The notes under the pieces are model-generated. The model did not search any database. It was not told the origin of the DNA and saw only the letters and a program-made list of their open reading frames with translations. The translations under genes were made by a program, and so were the position numbers. This document shows positions 1,273 through 64,000 of a stretch of DNA of 64,000 nucleotides, in pieces. The stretch lies in assembly GCF_026340655.1 (NCBI RefSeq), contig NZ_JAPEOZ010000001.1, positions 2,108,001 through 2,172,000 on the forward strand, written 5' to 3'. Source of the stretch: Streptomyces sp. NBC_01275 (lineage in GTDB: Bacteria > Actinomycetota > Actinomycetes > Streptomycetales > Streptomycetaceae). The first letter of the stretch is position 1. Each line of letters starts with the position of its first letter.

Positions 1273-1399
1273 ACCGGAGGCGGGGTGCGGAGGCTAACCA
1301 GCGGGGTTGTGTCTCAGGTGGCGGGCCGTCGGGGTCGGGTGCGCGCCGTCTCACAAGGGGTTTCGCAAGCGGTTTCGCAGGCTCTTTCGTCGTGGGTCG

Positions 1400-1513
1400 G
1401 GGCCGTGGCGGTACGTCGAGTCCGCCGCGTGTCGGACGTACTGCTGCCTGCTGCCACAGTTGAACTTGGCAGTGACGAGCTAAGCGGCGGACTGCGACGT
1501 ACCGCCACGGCCC
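1400..1513. repeat. 114-bp element with 29-bp inverted terminal arms
   Basis: The arm at 1400-1428 is the reverse complement of 1484-1513 over 29 bases, broken only by one extra G in the right arm. The 55-base centre contains a second small palindrome (CTGCCA at 1451-1456 with TGGCAG at 1467-1472, and AGTT/AACT inside it). The element fills most of the 319-bp gap between the TetR gene and dapD. It could be a MITE-like mobile remnant, a long-loop terminator for the TetR/SMR transcript, or a structured RNA. I see no clear target-site duplication. Confidence 0.7.
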
Positions 1514-1579
1514 GCTCCCGTCGTCCTGCGGCCGTCCCGCCGTCGAGGGCCACGGTGGAGGCTGTGGTCGGTCCCACGG

Positions 1580-2125
1580 TCAGTGGGGTGTGGGGATGAG
1601 TCTGGCCAGGGTCTGTCGTGTGTACGTCTCGTCGTACGGGGTGTCCGTCAGGAGGGTCTGGAGGCAGATGCCGTCCATCAGGGCTGCCAGGGCCCGGGCG
1701 GTGACGGGGTCCGTGTGGGCGGACAGCAGGTCGGTCACGTCCTCGGTCCACTCGGCGGCCACCGGGCGCAGTGCCGGGCGGCGCAGGGCGGCCAGATAGA
1801 GCTCGTACTCGAGTTCCACGCCGGTGCGGTCGCCGGACAGCCAGTCGGCGAGGAGGGCCGCCAGTTCGGCGGGCAGGTCCGGATGGGGGGCGCGGAGGCC
1901 CTCGCGTGCGGCCACGGCCTTGGCGAAGCCCTCGTTTGCCTGGCGCAGGGCGGCGATCATCAGGTCGTCGAGGGTTTTGAAGTGGTACGTCGTGGAGCCG
2001 AGCGGGACGTCCGCCTCGGCCGCGACCGAACGGTGGGTCAGCCCGGCCAGGCCCTTCTTGCCTACGACGCGGATCGCCGCGTCGATGATCCGCTGGCGGC
2101 GCTCGGGGTCGTGGCGGCGGGGCAT
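1580..2125 (-). CDS. TetR-family transcriptional repressor, probably of the adjacent SMR pump
   Basis: 181 residues. The N-terminal TetR DNA-binding domain has its helix-turn-helix at about residues 30-49 (GLTHRSVAAEADVPLGSTTY), preceded by the usual RRQRIIDAAIRVVGKKG helix. The C-terminal ligand-binding part is divergent. ATG at 2123-2125 overlaps the TGA of the SMR gene as ATGA, so the two are translationally coupled and co-transcribed. The natural model is a drug-responsive repressor acting on the palindrome at the SMR start. A longer open frame exists upstream, but it runs inside the SMR gene and is not needed for the TetR fold. Confidence 0.9.
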   Translation of the reverse strand: MPRRHDPERRQRIIDAAIRVVGKKGLAGLTHRSVAAEADVPLGSTTYHFKTLDDLMIAALRQANEGFAKAVAAREGLRAPHPDLPAELAALLADWLSGDRTGVELEYELYLAALRRPALRPVAAEWTEDVTDLLSAHTDPVTARALAALMDGICLQTLLTDTPYDETYTRQTLARLIPTPH

Positions 2126-59642: not shown

Positions 59643-60947
59643 ATGCACGACGTACGCACCGTAAGGGCGCCCTCCATGCCGCGGCTCGCGGCCGCCTCGC
59701 TCGCCGGGACGGCCATCGAGTTCTACGACTTCTTCGTCTACGGGACCGCGGCCGCGCTGATCCTGGGGCCGCTGTTCTTCCCGACGTTCTCGCCGCTGGC
59801 GGGGACCCTGGCCGCGTTCGCGACGTTCGGCGTGGGCTTCGTCGCGCGGCCGCTGGGATCGGTGCTGTTCGGGCACATCGGGGACCGGCACGGACGCCGG
59901 CCGGTCCTGGTCGTCTCCCTGCTGGTGACCGGCGCCTCGACGGTCGCGGTCGGCTGCGTGCCGACGTACGACAGGATCGGTGTGGCCGCGCCCCTGCTCC
60001 TGCTCGTCCTGCGGTTTCTGCAGGGGTTGGGGCTCGGCGGGGAGTGGGGCGGGGCGGTACTGCTCACCGCCGAGCACGCGCCCGCCGAACGGCGCGGGCT
60101 GTGGTCGAGTTTTCCGCAGGTCGGACCCGCGGTGGGGTTCGTGCTCGCCAACGGGGTGGTGCTGGTGCTGTCGGCGACGCTGACCGAGGCGCAGTTCGCT
60201 CAGTGGGGGTGGCGGGTGCCGTTCTGGGCGGCCGGGATCCTCGCCGTGCTCGGGCTGTGGCTCAGGTCGTCGCTCCCGGAGAGCCCCCGGTTCCTGGAGA
60301 TCGACGACCGCGCGCGCGTGCCGCTCGCCGAGGTCGCGCGCGACCACTGGCGGCTGGTCCTGCTGACCGCCGGCGCGCTCTCCGTCGGCTACGCGATCTT
60401 CTACGCCGTGACGACCTGGTCCCTGGCGTACGGGACGGAGCGGCTCGGGGTGAGCCGTACCGTCATGCTGACCTGCATCATGGCGGCCGTGGTGGTGAAG
60501 GGCTCGCTGACGCCGCTGGCGGCGATGCTCGGCGACCGTTTCGGCCGGCGCCCGCTGTGTCTCGTCGGATGCGCGGCGGCCGCGCTGTGGATGTTCCCGA
60601 TGGTGGCGCTCCTGGCGACCGGTGCTCCGCTGCCGATGTTCCTCGGTTTCCTTGGCGCGCTGGTCGCCTTCGTGACGATGTTCGCCGTGATCGCGGCGTA
60701 TCTGCCGGAGCTGTACGAGCCGCGCGTGCGCTGCACCGGGGCGGCGGTCGGCTACAACCTCGGCGGTGTCCTCGGGGGCGCGCTCACGCCGATCGTGGCG
60801 ACGGCCCTCGCGGAGCGCTCGGGGCGTGTCCCGTGGGGGGTGGGCGCGTATCTGACGGGGATCGCGCTGCTCAGCCTGGGCTGCTTCGCGCTGCTGCCGG
60901 AGACGCGGCCGGCGCCGGTGGCCACGGCTCAGCCCGCTATGGATTGA
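59643..60947 (+). CDS. MFS metabolite:H+ symporter (MHS family)
   Basis: 434 residues with about 12 transmembrane segments. The N-terminal GTAIEFYDFFVYGTAAALI and FGHIGDRHGRRPVLVVSLLV are characteristic of the MHS branch (proline/betaine, shikimate, citrate symporters). LGLGGEWGGAVLLTAEHAP is a second family signature. The substrate cannot be fixed, but shikimate or quinate is worth considering because aroQ is 1.2 kb away. ATG at 59643 lacks a clear ribosome-binding site. Its last 11 bases overlap the convergent antiporter gene. Confidence 0.92.
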   Translation: MHDVRTVRAPSMPRLAAASLAGTAIEFYDFFVYGTAAALILGPLFFPTFSPLAGTLAAFATFGVGFVARPLGSVLFGHIGDRHGRRPVLVVSLLVTGASTVAVGCVPTYDRIGVAAPLLLLVLRFLQGLGLGGEWGGAVLLTAEHAPAERRGLWSSFPQVGPAVGFVLANGVVLVLSATLTEAQFAQWGWRVPFWAAGILAVLGLWLRSSLPESPRFLEIDDRARVPLAEVARDHWRLVLLTAGALSVGYAIFYAVTTWSLAYGTERLGVSRTVMLTCIMAAVVVKGSLTPLAAMLGDRFGRRPLCLVGCAAAALWMFPMVALLATGAPLPMFLGFLGALVAFVTMFAVIAAYLPELYEPRVRCTGAAVGYNLGGVLGGALTPIVATALAERSGRVPWGVGAYLTGIALLSLGCFALLPETRPAPVATAQPAMD

Positions 60948-62037
60948 TCGCCAGCTCCAGATACGCCGCGAACAGCACGAGATGCACGCCGCCCTGCAAC
61001 GGCGTCGCCCGGCCCGGCACCACCGTCAGCGAGCTCACCACGACGGTCAGCGCGAGCAGCACCATGTGGGTGGCGCCGAGACCGAGGACGAGCGGTCCGG
61101 AGAGCCAGACGGAGGCGAGGGCGACCGCCGGGATGGTCAGGCCGATGCTGGCCATCGCCGAGCCGAGCGCGAGGTTGAGGCTGGTCTGCACCCGGTCGCG
61201 GCGGGCGGAGCGCAGCGCGGCGATCGTCTCGGGGAGCAGCACGAGCAGCGCGATGATCACACCGACGACGGCAGGGTGCAGGCCGGCCGCCTCGACTCCG
61301 GACTCGATCGTGGGCGAGACCCCCTTGGCGAGTCCCACCACGCCGATCAGGGCCACTCCGAGCAGCCCGAGGCTGATCAGGGCGGTCCGGGAGGCGGGCG
61401 CGTCGGCGTGGTCGTCCGCGGTGATCACGTCGCCCTGCCGGGTGATCGGCAGGAAGTAGTCGCGGTGCCGGATGGTCTGGGTCGCCACGAACAGGCCGTA
61501 CAGAATGAGCGAGGACAGTGCGGCGAAGGTGAGCTGGACGGTGGAGAACTCCGGGCCCGGTTTGCTGGTGGTGAAGGTCGGCAGGACCAGGCTGAGCGTG
61601 GCGAGGGTCGCGACGGTCGCGAGCGCGGCGCCGGTGCCCTCGGGGTTGAAGATCGCCGTGCCGTGGCGCAGGGAGGCGACCAGGAGGCTCAGGCCGACGA
61701 TGCCGTTGCAGGTGATCATCACGGCCGCGAAGACCGTGTCCCTGGCCAGCGTCGAGCTCTTGTCGCCGCCGTCCGCCATCAGGGTGACGATCAGGGCGAC
61801 CTCGATGATCGTCACGGCGACCGCTAAGACGAGGGAGCCGAAGGGCTCGCCGACCCGGTGGGCGACGACCTCGGCGTGGTGCACGGCGGCCAGGACGGCT
61901 CCGGCGAGGACCACGGTCACCAGCGCGACGACCGCCGCGGGCAGGTCGCGGCCCCAGGTCAGGGCCAGCAGGACGATCGCGAGCACCGGCACGAGGGACG
62001 TCCACCGGCTTGTGAGCGACCTGAGCCGAGCGATCAT
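60937..62037 (-). CDS. Calcium/proton antiporter (ChaA-type)
   Basis: 366 residues with about 11 hydrophobic segments in two repeats. Motif one is LVLAVAVTIIEVALIVTLM followed by DTVFAAVMITCNGIVGLSLL. Motif two is ALLVLLPETIAALRSARR and SLNLALGSAMASIGLTIPA. These are the two Glu-containing alpha-repeats of the CaCA superfamily; length and order match ChaA/CAX. It exports Ca2+ or Na+ in exchange for protons. ATG at 62035-62037. The gene converges on, and overlaps by 11 bp, the MFS gene. Confidence 0.9.
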   Translation of the reverse strand: MIARLRSLTSRWTSLVPVLAIVLLALTWGRDLPAAVVALVTVVLAGAVLAAVHHAEVVAHRVGEPFGSLVLAVAVTIIEVALIVTLMADGGDKSSTLARDTVFAAVMITCNGIVGLSLLVASLRHGTAIFNPEGTGAALATVATLATLSLVLPTFTTSKPGPEFSTVQLTFAALSSLILYGLFVATQTIRHRDYFLPITRQGDVITADDHADAPASRTALISLGLLGVALIGVVGLAKGVSPTIESGVEAAGLHPAVVGVIIALLVLLPETIAALRSARRDRVQTSLNLALGSAMASIGLTIPAVALASVWLSGPLVLGLGATHMVLLALTVVVSSLTVVPGRATPLQGGVHLVLFAAYLELAINP

Positions 62038-62091
62038 GGAGCCGATCGTCGCAGAGCCGCAGGGGCTTCGCATTCCGGCCTCGTACGAGCG

Positions 62092-62125
62092 GCAGGGGGC
62101 CCGGCGTCGGGCGCGGGCCCCCTGC
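62092..62125 (-). terminator. Terminator downstream of the ABM-like gene
   Basis: A perfect 12-bp stem (62092-62103 with 62114-62125, 10-base loop) begins 14 bp after the stop of the 104-residue gene. Confidence 0.85.
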
Positions 62126-62138
62126 ACGCCCGGCGTGG

Positions 62139-62579: not shown

Positions 62580-63581
62580 TCAGGCCTCGATGCTGTCCTT
62601 CGGAGCGCCTTCGCTCGCCGACTGCGCCGCCTCGGCCGCCGCCTGCTTCTTGGACGCCCACAGGCTGGTGATCGTGGTGACGATCAGGACGGCGCAGATC
62701 ACGCCGAGGGAGACCGGGATGCTGATCTCGGGGACATGGACCCCGGACTCGTGCATCGCGTGCAGCACCAGCTTCACGCCGATGAAGCCCAGGATGATCG
62801 ACAGGCCGTAGCTGAGGTGGACCAGCTTCCTCAGCAGACCGCCGATGAGGAAGTACAGCTGCCGGAGGCCCATGAGGGCGAACGCGTTGGCCGTGAAGAC
62901 GATGTACGGGTCCTGCGTGAGGCCGAAGATCGCGGGGATGGAGTCGAGGGCGAAGAGCACGTCGGTGGTGCCGATCGCGAGCATGACGACCAGCATCGGG
63001 GTCATGACCCGCTTGCCGTTCTGCTCGATCCACAGCTTGGTGCCGTGGTAGCGGTCGGCGACACCGAAGCGGCGCTCTGCCGCCTTGAGCAGCTTGTTCT
63101 CCTCGAACTCCTCGTCCTCGTCGTCGGCCCGGGCCTCCTGGATGAGCTTCCAGGCGGTCCAGATCAGGAACGCGCCGAAGAGGTAGAAGACCCATGCGAA
63201 GCTGGCGAGGATCGCGGCGCCCGCGGCGATGAAGATTGCCCGCAGGACCAGGGCTATGAGGACGCCGACGAGCAGGACCCGCTGCTGGTACTGCGACGGG
63301 ACCGCGAACTTCGCCATGATCAGGACGAAGACGAAGAGATTGTCGACGCTGAGCGACTTCTCGGTGATGAAGCCGGCGAAGAACTCTCCGCCCGCCTCAC
63401 CGCTGCCGAAGACGAGCAGCCCGAGCCCGAAGAGCCCGGCGAGGGCGATCCAGACGACGGTCCAGATGCCGGCTTCCTTGATCGACACGTCGTGCGGCTT
63501 ACGGCCGATGAAGAAATCGACCGCGATGAGGGCGGCAAGGCCCACGATGGTGAGGACCCATAGGGTCACGGAAACATTCAC
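62580..63581 (-). CDS. TerC-family integral membrane protein, probable manganese exporter
   Basis: 333 residues, seven to nine hydrophobic segments. EKSLSVDNLFVFVLIMAKF and LAIGTTDVLFALDSIPAIFG are the two Asp-containing motifs of the TerC/Alx family, and ANAFALMGLRQLYFLIGGLL is typical. Alx/MeeF-type TerC proteins export Mn2+ and load Mn into secreted enzymes. A charged loop (DDEDEEFEENK) lies in the middle. The GTG at 63579-63581 has GGAGG four bases upstream. That site is complementary to the 3' strand of the upstream riboswitch, so translation is probably controlled by manganese. Confidence 0.93.
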   Translation of the reverse strand: MNVSVTLWVLTIVGLAALIAVDFFIGRKPHDVSIKEAGIWTVVWIALAGLFGLGLLVFGSGEAGGEFFAGFITEKSLSVDNLFVFVLIMAKFAVPSQYQQRVLLVGVLIALVLRAIFIAAGAAILASFAWVFYLFGAFLIWTAWKLIQEARADDEDEEFEENKLLKAAERRFGVADRYHGTKLWIEQNGKRVMTPMLVVMLAIGTTDVLFALDSIPAIFGLTQDPYIVFTANAFALMGLRQLYFLIGGLLRKLVHLSYGLSIILGFIGVKLVLHAMHESGVHVPEISIPVSLGVICAVLIVTTITSLWASKKQAAAEAAQSASEGAPKDSIEA

Positions 63582-63585
63582 TGCG

Positions 63586-63757
63586 CCTCCGGCAGTACGT
63601 AACGGCAAGTGACCAGCGTCGTCGCGCTGCCGGAGGTCTCTTCCACCCCGGGCCCCGGCGCGCGGGAAGCGCGTGGAGCCACACGGGCCGACGCCCCGGG
63701 ATCAGGCCTGATCCGTATTGACGGGTACGCCGCACAGACAGGGAGTACTCCCCTCCG
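63586..63757 (-). promoter_or_regulatory. yybP-ykoY manganese riboswitch with ribosome-binding-site switch
   Basis: On the minus strand P1 pairs CGGAGG (63757-63752) with CCTCCG (63636-63631). The core holds the conserved GGGGAGTAC (63753-63745), GTCAATACG (63722-63714) and AGACCTCCG (63639-63631), matching the Mn2+-sensing yybP-ykoY class as I know it. The 3' P1 strand CCTCCGGCAG (63636-63627) is also perfectly complementary over 10 bases to CTGCCGGAGG (63595-63586), which contains the terC ribosome-binding site. P1 and the sequestering helix exclude each other, so Mn2+ should free the site and turn translation on. Confidence 0.88.
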
Positions 63758-63765
63758 TACGAATG

Positions 63766-63795
63766 ACAGTACCCCAATCACCAAGGAAAGGTAAA
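63766..63795 (-). promoter_or_regulatory. Promoter of the terC riboswitch transcript
   Basis: On the minus strand a TTTACC -35 (63795-63790) and a TACTGT -10 (63771-63766) are 18 bases apart. The start would fall just before the riboswitch P1. The CTTTACC motif recurs nearby at 63856-63850 and in TTTTACC near 63806, which may mark regulator sites. Confidence 0.6.
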
Positions 63796-63869
63796 GCGAT
63801 TGGTAAAAGAAAGACCAAACTTGCAGGTCAGATGGCTTTACGTGTGCTTGGTAAAGTCGTTGGCGTGGG

Positions 63870-64000
63870 TCACTGGGGCCAGGAGCGGCGGGCCGCGGCG
63901 ACCTGGGCGAGGACCTGCTGGAGCACCTCGCTGCCGGGCGGCACGAGCGACGGCTCGTACGTCCAGGCGTGCCCCACCCACGGGTCGGCAAGGTGGTCGT
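63870..64000 (-). CDS. Unknown protein, C-terminal fragment
   Basis: A minus-strand frame is open from the right edge (64000) to TGA at 63870-63872 and encodes at least 43 residues. Visible text includes DHLADPWVGHAWTYEP and ends LAQVAAARRSWPQ. Third positions are GC-rich, as in real genes here. Nothing recognisable is seen, so I give no function. It would be the gene upstream of terC, separated by the terC promoter and a 75-bp AT-richer stretch. Confidence 0.55.
   Translation of the reverse strand, partial: DHLADPWVGHAWTYEPSLVPPGSEVLQQVLAQVAAARRSWPQ

Follow-up and report, generated by a model that had tools for sequence, protein, structure and literature searches.

The window analysed here is a 64,000-nucleotide stretch of Streptomyces sp. 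NBC_01275 (contig NZ_JAPEOZ010000001.1, positions 2,108,001 to 2,172,000), and the subject of this report is the 5′ leader of its minus-strand gene terC. The gene encodes a TerC/Alx-family metal homeostasis membrane protein, which in an NCBIfam scan scores 385.5 bits against the model TIGR03718 R_switched_Alx (cut-off 246.4). Its GTG start codon (63581) follows the Shine-Dalgarno (SD) sequence GGAGG (63590-63586) at a distance of four bases, and an ATG close to it, at 63577-63575, is out of frame. The leader contains a complete core of the yybP-ykoY riboswitch class (63757-63586, minus strand). The features of the locus, in the order of transcription, are as follows; counts out of 90 refer to matches aligned across Actinomycetia (alignment A3, described below).

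63790-63795, minus strand: promoter −35 element TTTACC, from sequence reading
63766-63771, minus strand: promoter −10 element TACTGT, from sequence reading
63752-63757, minus strand: 5′ strand of helix P1.1, CGGAGG, a copy of the SD segment; P1.1 covaries across Actinomycetia
63746-63751, minus strand: 5′ side of L1, GGAGUA; invariant in 90/90
63742-63744, minus strand: 5′ strand of P1.2, UCC; P1.2 covaries across Actinomycetia
63722-63732, minus strand: 5′ strand of P3.1, from covariation
63715-63721, minus strand: L3, UCAAUAC; C and A invariant in 90/90
63699-63714, minus strand: P3.2 hairpin, from covariation
63689-63698, minus strand: 3′ strand of P3.1, from covariation
63646-63687, minus strand: P4 with an insert of variable length, from covariation
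63642-63644, minus strand: 3′ strand of P1.2, GGA, from covariation
63637-63640, minus strand: 3′ side of L1, GAGA; AGA in 89/90 (truncated in the remaining row) and the first G in 85/90
63631-63636, minus strand: 3′ strand of P1.1, CCUCCG, from sequence reading and covariation
63627-63636, minus strand: switch strand CCUCCGGCAG, the 3′ strand of P1.1 plus four bases; exact complement of 63595-63586, with covariation outside Streptomyces
63586-63595, minus strand: SD segment CUGCCGGAGG, from sequence reading; complement of the switch strand
63579-63581, minus strand: terC start codon GTG, in frame with the TerC reading frame
62580-63581, minus strand: terC (Pfam PF03741, E 1.4e-52; NCBIfam TIGR03718 R_switched_Alx)

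The core elements are arranged successively as P1.1, L1, P1.2, P3.1, L3, P3.2 hairpin, P3.1, P4, P1.2, L1 and P1.1. An earlier note on this DNA had read the three core sequences of the class in order, together with a P1 helix, and both are present: GGGGAGTAC lies at 63753-63745, GTCAATACG at 63722-63714 and AGACCTCCG at 63639-63631 (minus strand), and CGGAGG (63757-63752) pairs with CCUCCG (63636-63631) as P1.1. Adjoining P1.2, position 63745 stands opposite 63641 as C.A. The TTTACC-N18-TACTGT promoter stops immediately upstream of P1.1, and the pattern TTTAC[C/T/A]-N17/18-TANNNT is found directly before P1 in all 53 intact Streptomyces leaders; judged from this sequence pattern, terC transcription should start at most a few bases from P1.

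The conservation of the element was followed in 61 genomes (G000 and 60 others of the same genus), all of which have terC. A total of 81 leaders were fetched, namely 61 orthologues (the best match per genome) and 20 paralogues, with two short terC fragments in G049 excluded. The full element is intact in 53 of the 61 orthologue leaders, a set selected by a pattern requiring CCTCCGG and CCGGAGG; a looser first-pass pattern had returned 48 leaders, every one of them also with CCGGAGG. By eye, the element is eroded in five orthologue leaders (L060, L064, L065, L067 and L070) and missing in three (L048, L050 and L066), and the three core motifs were found together in none of the 20 paralogue leaders. 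A covariance model, R1, was built from Streptomyces terC leaders only (alignment A2, 52 of the 53, one duplicate having been dropped). At E ≤ 1, R1 matched none of the eight eroded or missing leaders, and among eight of the 20 paralogue leaders it listed only L057, at 0.58. It matched 79 of 80 leaders of named records, which are the best 80 among the matches listed (79 Streptomyces and one Actinobacteria bacterium) and may overlap the 61 searched genomes; in the sole leader without a match, L249, the promoter is followed directly by the SD.

Across the class, R1 at E ≤ 0.01 had matches in 199 of the 345 Actinomycetia genomes searched (70 of the 126 genera), the own genus included; this search and that with the Rfam model of the class, RF00080, used stricter filters, by which some weak matches were lost. 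R1 also matches eight of the ten weak RF00080 loci in Actinomycetia, at the same place and strand, and aligns over its whole length to the E. coli alx leader with 41.6 bits (E 1.1e-8), which connects the element with a known Mn2+ riboswitch through a model, beyond motif likeness. From the listed, better-scoring R1 matches, weaker ones being excluded, 80 non-Streptomyces loci were picked, and in 73 of these the downstream gene is a TerC relative. Alignment A3 comprises 90 matches (82 in the 80 outside loci and eight in RF00080 loci) fitted to R1. A3 has 96.4% paired cells; compensatory change occurs in 22 of 28 pairs (4 of 500 shuffles as high) and in 513 cells (0/500), and the covariation score is 0.595 vs 0.197 in shuffles (0/500 as high). 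In this model-fitted alignment, helices P1.1, P1.2, P3.1, P3.2 and P4 are all supported by Actinomycetia-wide covariation. The aptamer class named in the earlier note is supported by the invariant L1/L3 core, the class-wide helix covariation and the R1 match to E. coli alx.

Comparison with described members of the class places the terC leader among them. In the crystal structures of the class, L3 holds one invariable adenosine whose N7 binds Mn2+, within UCA41AUUC in L. lactis and ACA48UACU in X. oryzae (PMC6754395). The terC leader has both UCA63719 and GAGACC; A63719 in its L3 corresponds to this Mn2+-binding adenosine, A41 or A48, by the roles given in PMC6754395. The invariable adenosine in L3 is thus shared with X. 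oryzae yebN and L. lactis yoaB, and the L1/P1 3′ strand of yebN begins with GAGACC as well (PMC6754395). For yebN and yoaB, however, four-way junctions with P2 are described and transcriptional switching is discussed (PMC6754395), whereas the terC leader has no P2 and carries an SD-pairing platform. Neither P2 nor a four-way junction was found in the terC leader, where a linker takes the place of P2. Its length is 4-14 nt among the 52 Streptomyces leaders; for the class matches it is 4-9 nt in all but one of the 90, a figure obtained with a P2-less model that favours such matches.

The leader of E. coli alx shows the same construction. R1 aligns its GGGGAGUA, CGUCAUUACG and GAGACCU end to end with the terC leader, a short linker again replacing P2, and the gene behind it is a TerC/Alx gene, 37% identical to the NBC_01275 TerC protein; the differences are a lower GC content and other stem sequences. 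A three-way-junction member has been described in S. pneumoniae (PMC9495176). Since alx aligns without P2 and a three-way member is known, the P2-less arrangement is regarded as a variant within the class, not as a separate class, and P2 is not treated as defining. The energy model places a local hairpin at the palindrome GGGAGUACUCCC (63752-63741) in the ligand-free fold; such a hairpin was considered and is not established, and no claim is made for it because P1.2 alone can account for the conserved UCC.

The strand CCUCCG (63636-63631) is common to P1.1 and to the stem that would cover the SD, so that both cannot form at once, and the mutual exclusion of P1 and SD sequestration proposed earlier stands on this shared strand. 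The accompanying claim, that the 3′ P1 strand is perfectly complementary to the SD segment over 10 bases, can be refined in one point: CCTCCGGCAG (63636-63627) is indeed the exact reverse complement of CTGCCGGAGG (63595-63586), but only six of the ten bases belong to P1.1, with GCAG lying beyond it. When the 44 bases downstream were dinucleotide-shuffled 20,000 times, a 10-base run arose once. In Streptomyces the SD stem comprises 7-10 consecutive Watson-Crick pairs, and ten in 25 of the 53 intact leaders, that of NBC_01275 among them. According to the energy model, the SD-stem fold lies below the enforced-P1 fold in all 53 leaders (difference 2.0-16.8 kcal/mol), and in 51 of them it is also the optimum of free folding; computed without metal or tertiary contacts, these folding energies would be compatible with a switch that is off by default.

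Outside Streptomyces, the start codon was placed by the best in-frame SD in 71 of the 73 TerC loci (L135 and L137 were dropped). The 3′ strand of P1, extended by six bases, was then set against a stretch of up to 20 bases that stops two bases short of the start codon. On average, the longest Watson-Crick run was 6.59 for a leader's own pairs, vs 4.98 for swapped pairs and 3.73 in shuffled windows (0/5000 swaps, n = 71). With one locus per distinct P1 8-mer, the mean run was 5.61 for own and 3.94 for swapped pairs (0/5000, n = 23), and runs of at least 7 were found at 44 of the 71 loci, with 15.5 expected. Loci with the CCUCCG strand were anchored on CGGAG in the leader, which left 38 of 42 usable. 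Here the four bases beyond P1, which are outside both P1 and the SD core, form 1.74 consecutive Watson-Crick pairs with their own partner vs 1.22 with a swapped one (1/10,000, n = 38); with G-U allowed, the total count was reached in 29/10,000 permutations. Variants of P1 are accompanied by variant SD segments: CCUCGAAC with GUUCGAGG at L133, CCUUCGGC with GCCGAAGG, CCUUCGGCAGC with GCUGCCGAAGG at L169, CCUCCAGC with GCUGGAGG at L146, and CCUCCGAC with GUCGGAGG at L164. The covariation between 63627-63636 and 63586-63595 that the earlier note had looked for in orthologues is therefore absent within Streptomyces for the shared pairs, which do not vary, but present in the wider class. The switching model, an inference when it was written, is supported in so far as, outside Streptomyces, changes in the 3′ P1 strand go along with changes in the SD segment.

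On this sequence evidence, the terC leader is very probably a P2-less, alx-type yybP-ykoY Mn2+ riboswitch that turns terC translation on; we infer the ligand and the direction of switching from the class. At low Mn2+, the SD would be held in a stem with the 3′ P1 strand and terC would be poorly translated. At high Mn2+, the docked L1 and L3 would bind the metal and stabilise P1.1, which would then capture CCUCCG, set the SD free and allow terC to be translated. A Mn2+ response of the E. coli mntP and alx leaders has been described, and for mntP translational Mn2+ switching is in print (PMC9603457).

A number of results speak against an on-switch of this kind or limit its support. Within the 53 intact Streptomyces leaders, P1.1 and SD-stem pairs 1-7 show no variation, whereas pair 9 is A.C or A.A in 16 and pair 10 is G.A or C.C in 19, in both cases without compensation. 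Owing to these invariant pairs and uncompensated breaks, the genus lends no covariation to the SD stem, and a test of the switch within Streptomyces alone was rejected for want of variation in P1.1 and in SD-stem pairs 1-7. Outside the genus, runs of at least 7 are limited to the 44 of 71 loci, CGGAG is absent from the leader at four of the 42 loci with the CCUCCG strand, and the effect beyond P1 is modest (1.74 vs 1.22), the consecutive count with G-U being reached in 332/10,000 permutations. The P1/SD permutations also leave the relatedness of the sequences in place. Relative to the free fold of the whole leader, the aptamer fold of NBC_01275 costs about 13 kcal/mol, and relative to that of the aptamer stretch by itself about 5 kcal/mol, in calculations that leave out metal and tertiary contacts. 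R1 gives no match on the E. coli mntP leader. Finally, RF00080 at E ≤ 10 has no match at the terC element within 63400-63900, and likewise none at the element in a further 20 Streptomyces terC leaders, which were taken from the 81 fetched and include two eroded ones.

The silence of RF00080 has to be read alongside its controls. At the gathering score (45 bits) the model matched nothing in the 64-kb window, and over the whole 10.4-Mb genome it gave three weak matches, all away from terC. Among the 345 Actinomycetia genomes, matches were obtained in 10, none above the cut-off, which was passed in 2 of 14 control genomes. In E. coli K-12 (NC_000913.3, used as a control) the mntP leader reached 41.6 bits, below the cut-off of 45, and the alx leader was not matched at E ≤ 10. 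According to its printed consensus lines, RF00080 (Rfam 15) leaves the 5′ strand of P1 unpaired. Because the model fails on both E. coli leaders, its miss at the terC leader says little. The scan with RF00080 that the earlier note had proposed as a check thus ended without a match, an outcome that is uninformative since alx was missed as well and mntP remained sub-threshold. RF00080 was rejected as a membership criterion, as it fails the E. coli controls and does not separate members from non-members.

Among the alternatives, a Mn2+ riboswitch whose main effect is on transcription, by way of Rho or a distal terminator, with the SD complementarity as a by-product of an SD-like P1, is improbable. 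It is favoured by other class members that act on transcription (PMC6754395), by the fact that a CGGAGG P1 partly forces CCUCC opposite GGAGG, and by the pairs beyond P1 that are not strictly kept within Streptomyces. However, the 31 bases separating the two switch strands contain no T-run, the bases beyond P1 outside Streptomyces fit their own partner over a swapped one (1/10,000, Watson-Crick), and the P1 variants CCUCGAAC and CCUUCGGC face GUUCGAGG and GCCGAAGG.

Still less probable is a leader in which the yybP-ykoY fold is retained but the response is to a different cation or to a further signal, such as Ca2+ or pH, given that the adenosine of Mn2+ selectivity is invariant (90/90). Such a response has parallels in S. 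pneumoniae mgtA, which binds Ca2+ (PMC9495176), and in E. coli mntP and alx, which also respond to alkaline pH (PMC9603457), and a gene of the Na/Ca exchanger family is located downstream of terC, with two weak RF00080 matches placed before such genes elsewhere. A riboswitch-like appearance by chance, from three short motifs plus a complementary decamer in GC-rich DNA, to which the silence of RF00080 at the terC leader might point, is rejected as next to impossible in view of the element intact in 53 of 61 Streptomyces terC leaders, the R1 matches in 79 of 80 named-record leaders and 199 of 345 class genomes, the strong covariation in A3 and the 10-base run reached once in 20,000 shuffles.

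Beyond the P2-less Mn2+ on-switch itself, a broader proposal can be made, to which we give roughly even chances. The Actinomycetia terC leaders would form one inherited P2-less branch invisible to the current Rfam model, E. coli alx included, and would work by a three-strand exchange in which the 5′ strand of P1 serves as an internal copy of the SD, so that P1, its complement and the SD must co-evolve; in some Streptomyces, loss of the aptamer with retention of promoter and SD would leave terC always open, or else held down if the SD hairpin is still present.

The streptomycete terC element belongs to a known class, is widespread and apparently under-annotated across Actinomycetia, and has a switching platform backed by comparative data. 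Riboswitches of the yybP-ykoY class in actinobacteria are already in print (PMC8164766), the motif has been reported in more than 75% of the taxonomic groups of PMC3766115, and a link between the riboswitch and terC has been published for Vibrio as well (PMC13274385). For C. glutamicum terC (cg2157), a yybP-ykoY leader has been described with a score of 49.13 bits under an earlier Rfam model (PMC3890552), the likeness being one of class and gene. The Mn2+ riboswitch of Streptococcus pneumoniae mgtA is reported to control an ATPase transporter by activating transcription, unlike the terC leader. A literature search that left out most subscription papers yielded no description of a streptomycete terC riboswitch. 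Of the 22 cis-regulatory elements named for S. lividans TK24 in an Rfam survey, none is RF00080 (PMC8079986, Table 3), and the main text of an S. avermitilis survey names neither yybP nor terC (PMC8780764); these concern the survey list and the main text, respectively, and not the terC leaders of the two strains. If the proposed function is correct, terC would be under RNA-level manganese control in most streptomycetes and many other Actinomycetia. Annotation based on Rfam is likely to miss the element, and surveys using RF00080 may undercount Mn2+ riboswitches, as the Rfam 15 model places neither alx nor mntP of E. coli above its cut-off. The variable P1/SD pairs offer ready material for compensatory-mutation tests.

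Several further observations were made on the leaders and the neighbouring genes. In some Streptomyces terC leaders the promoter and SD are kept and the aptamer is missing (L048, L050, L066 and L249) or eroded (L060, L064, L065, L067 and L070). L060 and L064 retain a CCUCCGGC...GCCGGAGG hairpin without the aptamer, which is predicted to hold terC down. In the leaders of second terC paralogues L057, L051, L062 and L071 there are sequences similar to GGGTGGAAGAGACC, with an exact copy in L057; these may be what is left of a lost riboswitch.

Downstream of terC in the window, a Na/Ca exchanger-family gene occupies 60937-62127 (minus strand), with one small open frame between the two genes. Weak RF00080 matches stand before Na/Ca exchanger-family genes at L115 and L116. 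A gene for a GDT1-type divalent cation antiporter lies behind weak RF00080 matches shared with R1 at L119, L120 and L123 (and, by frame reading, at L117 and L121), L120 being from a genome of the own genus. R1 elements at L131, L136, L149, L159 and L163, all of one actinobacterial genus (g67), precede a protein of about 290 residues; no Pfam family was found in the four of these proteins scanned (L163 excluded) and no NCBIfam family in the three scanned, and its gene is a candidate for a manganese-related function. At L167 two divergent R1 elements, 1301-1403 (minus strand) and 1492-1601 (plus strand), are 88 bases apart; one precedes terC and the other a 34-codon open frame.
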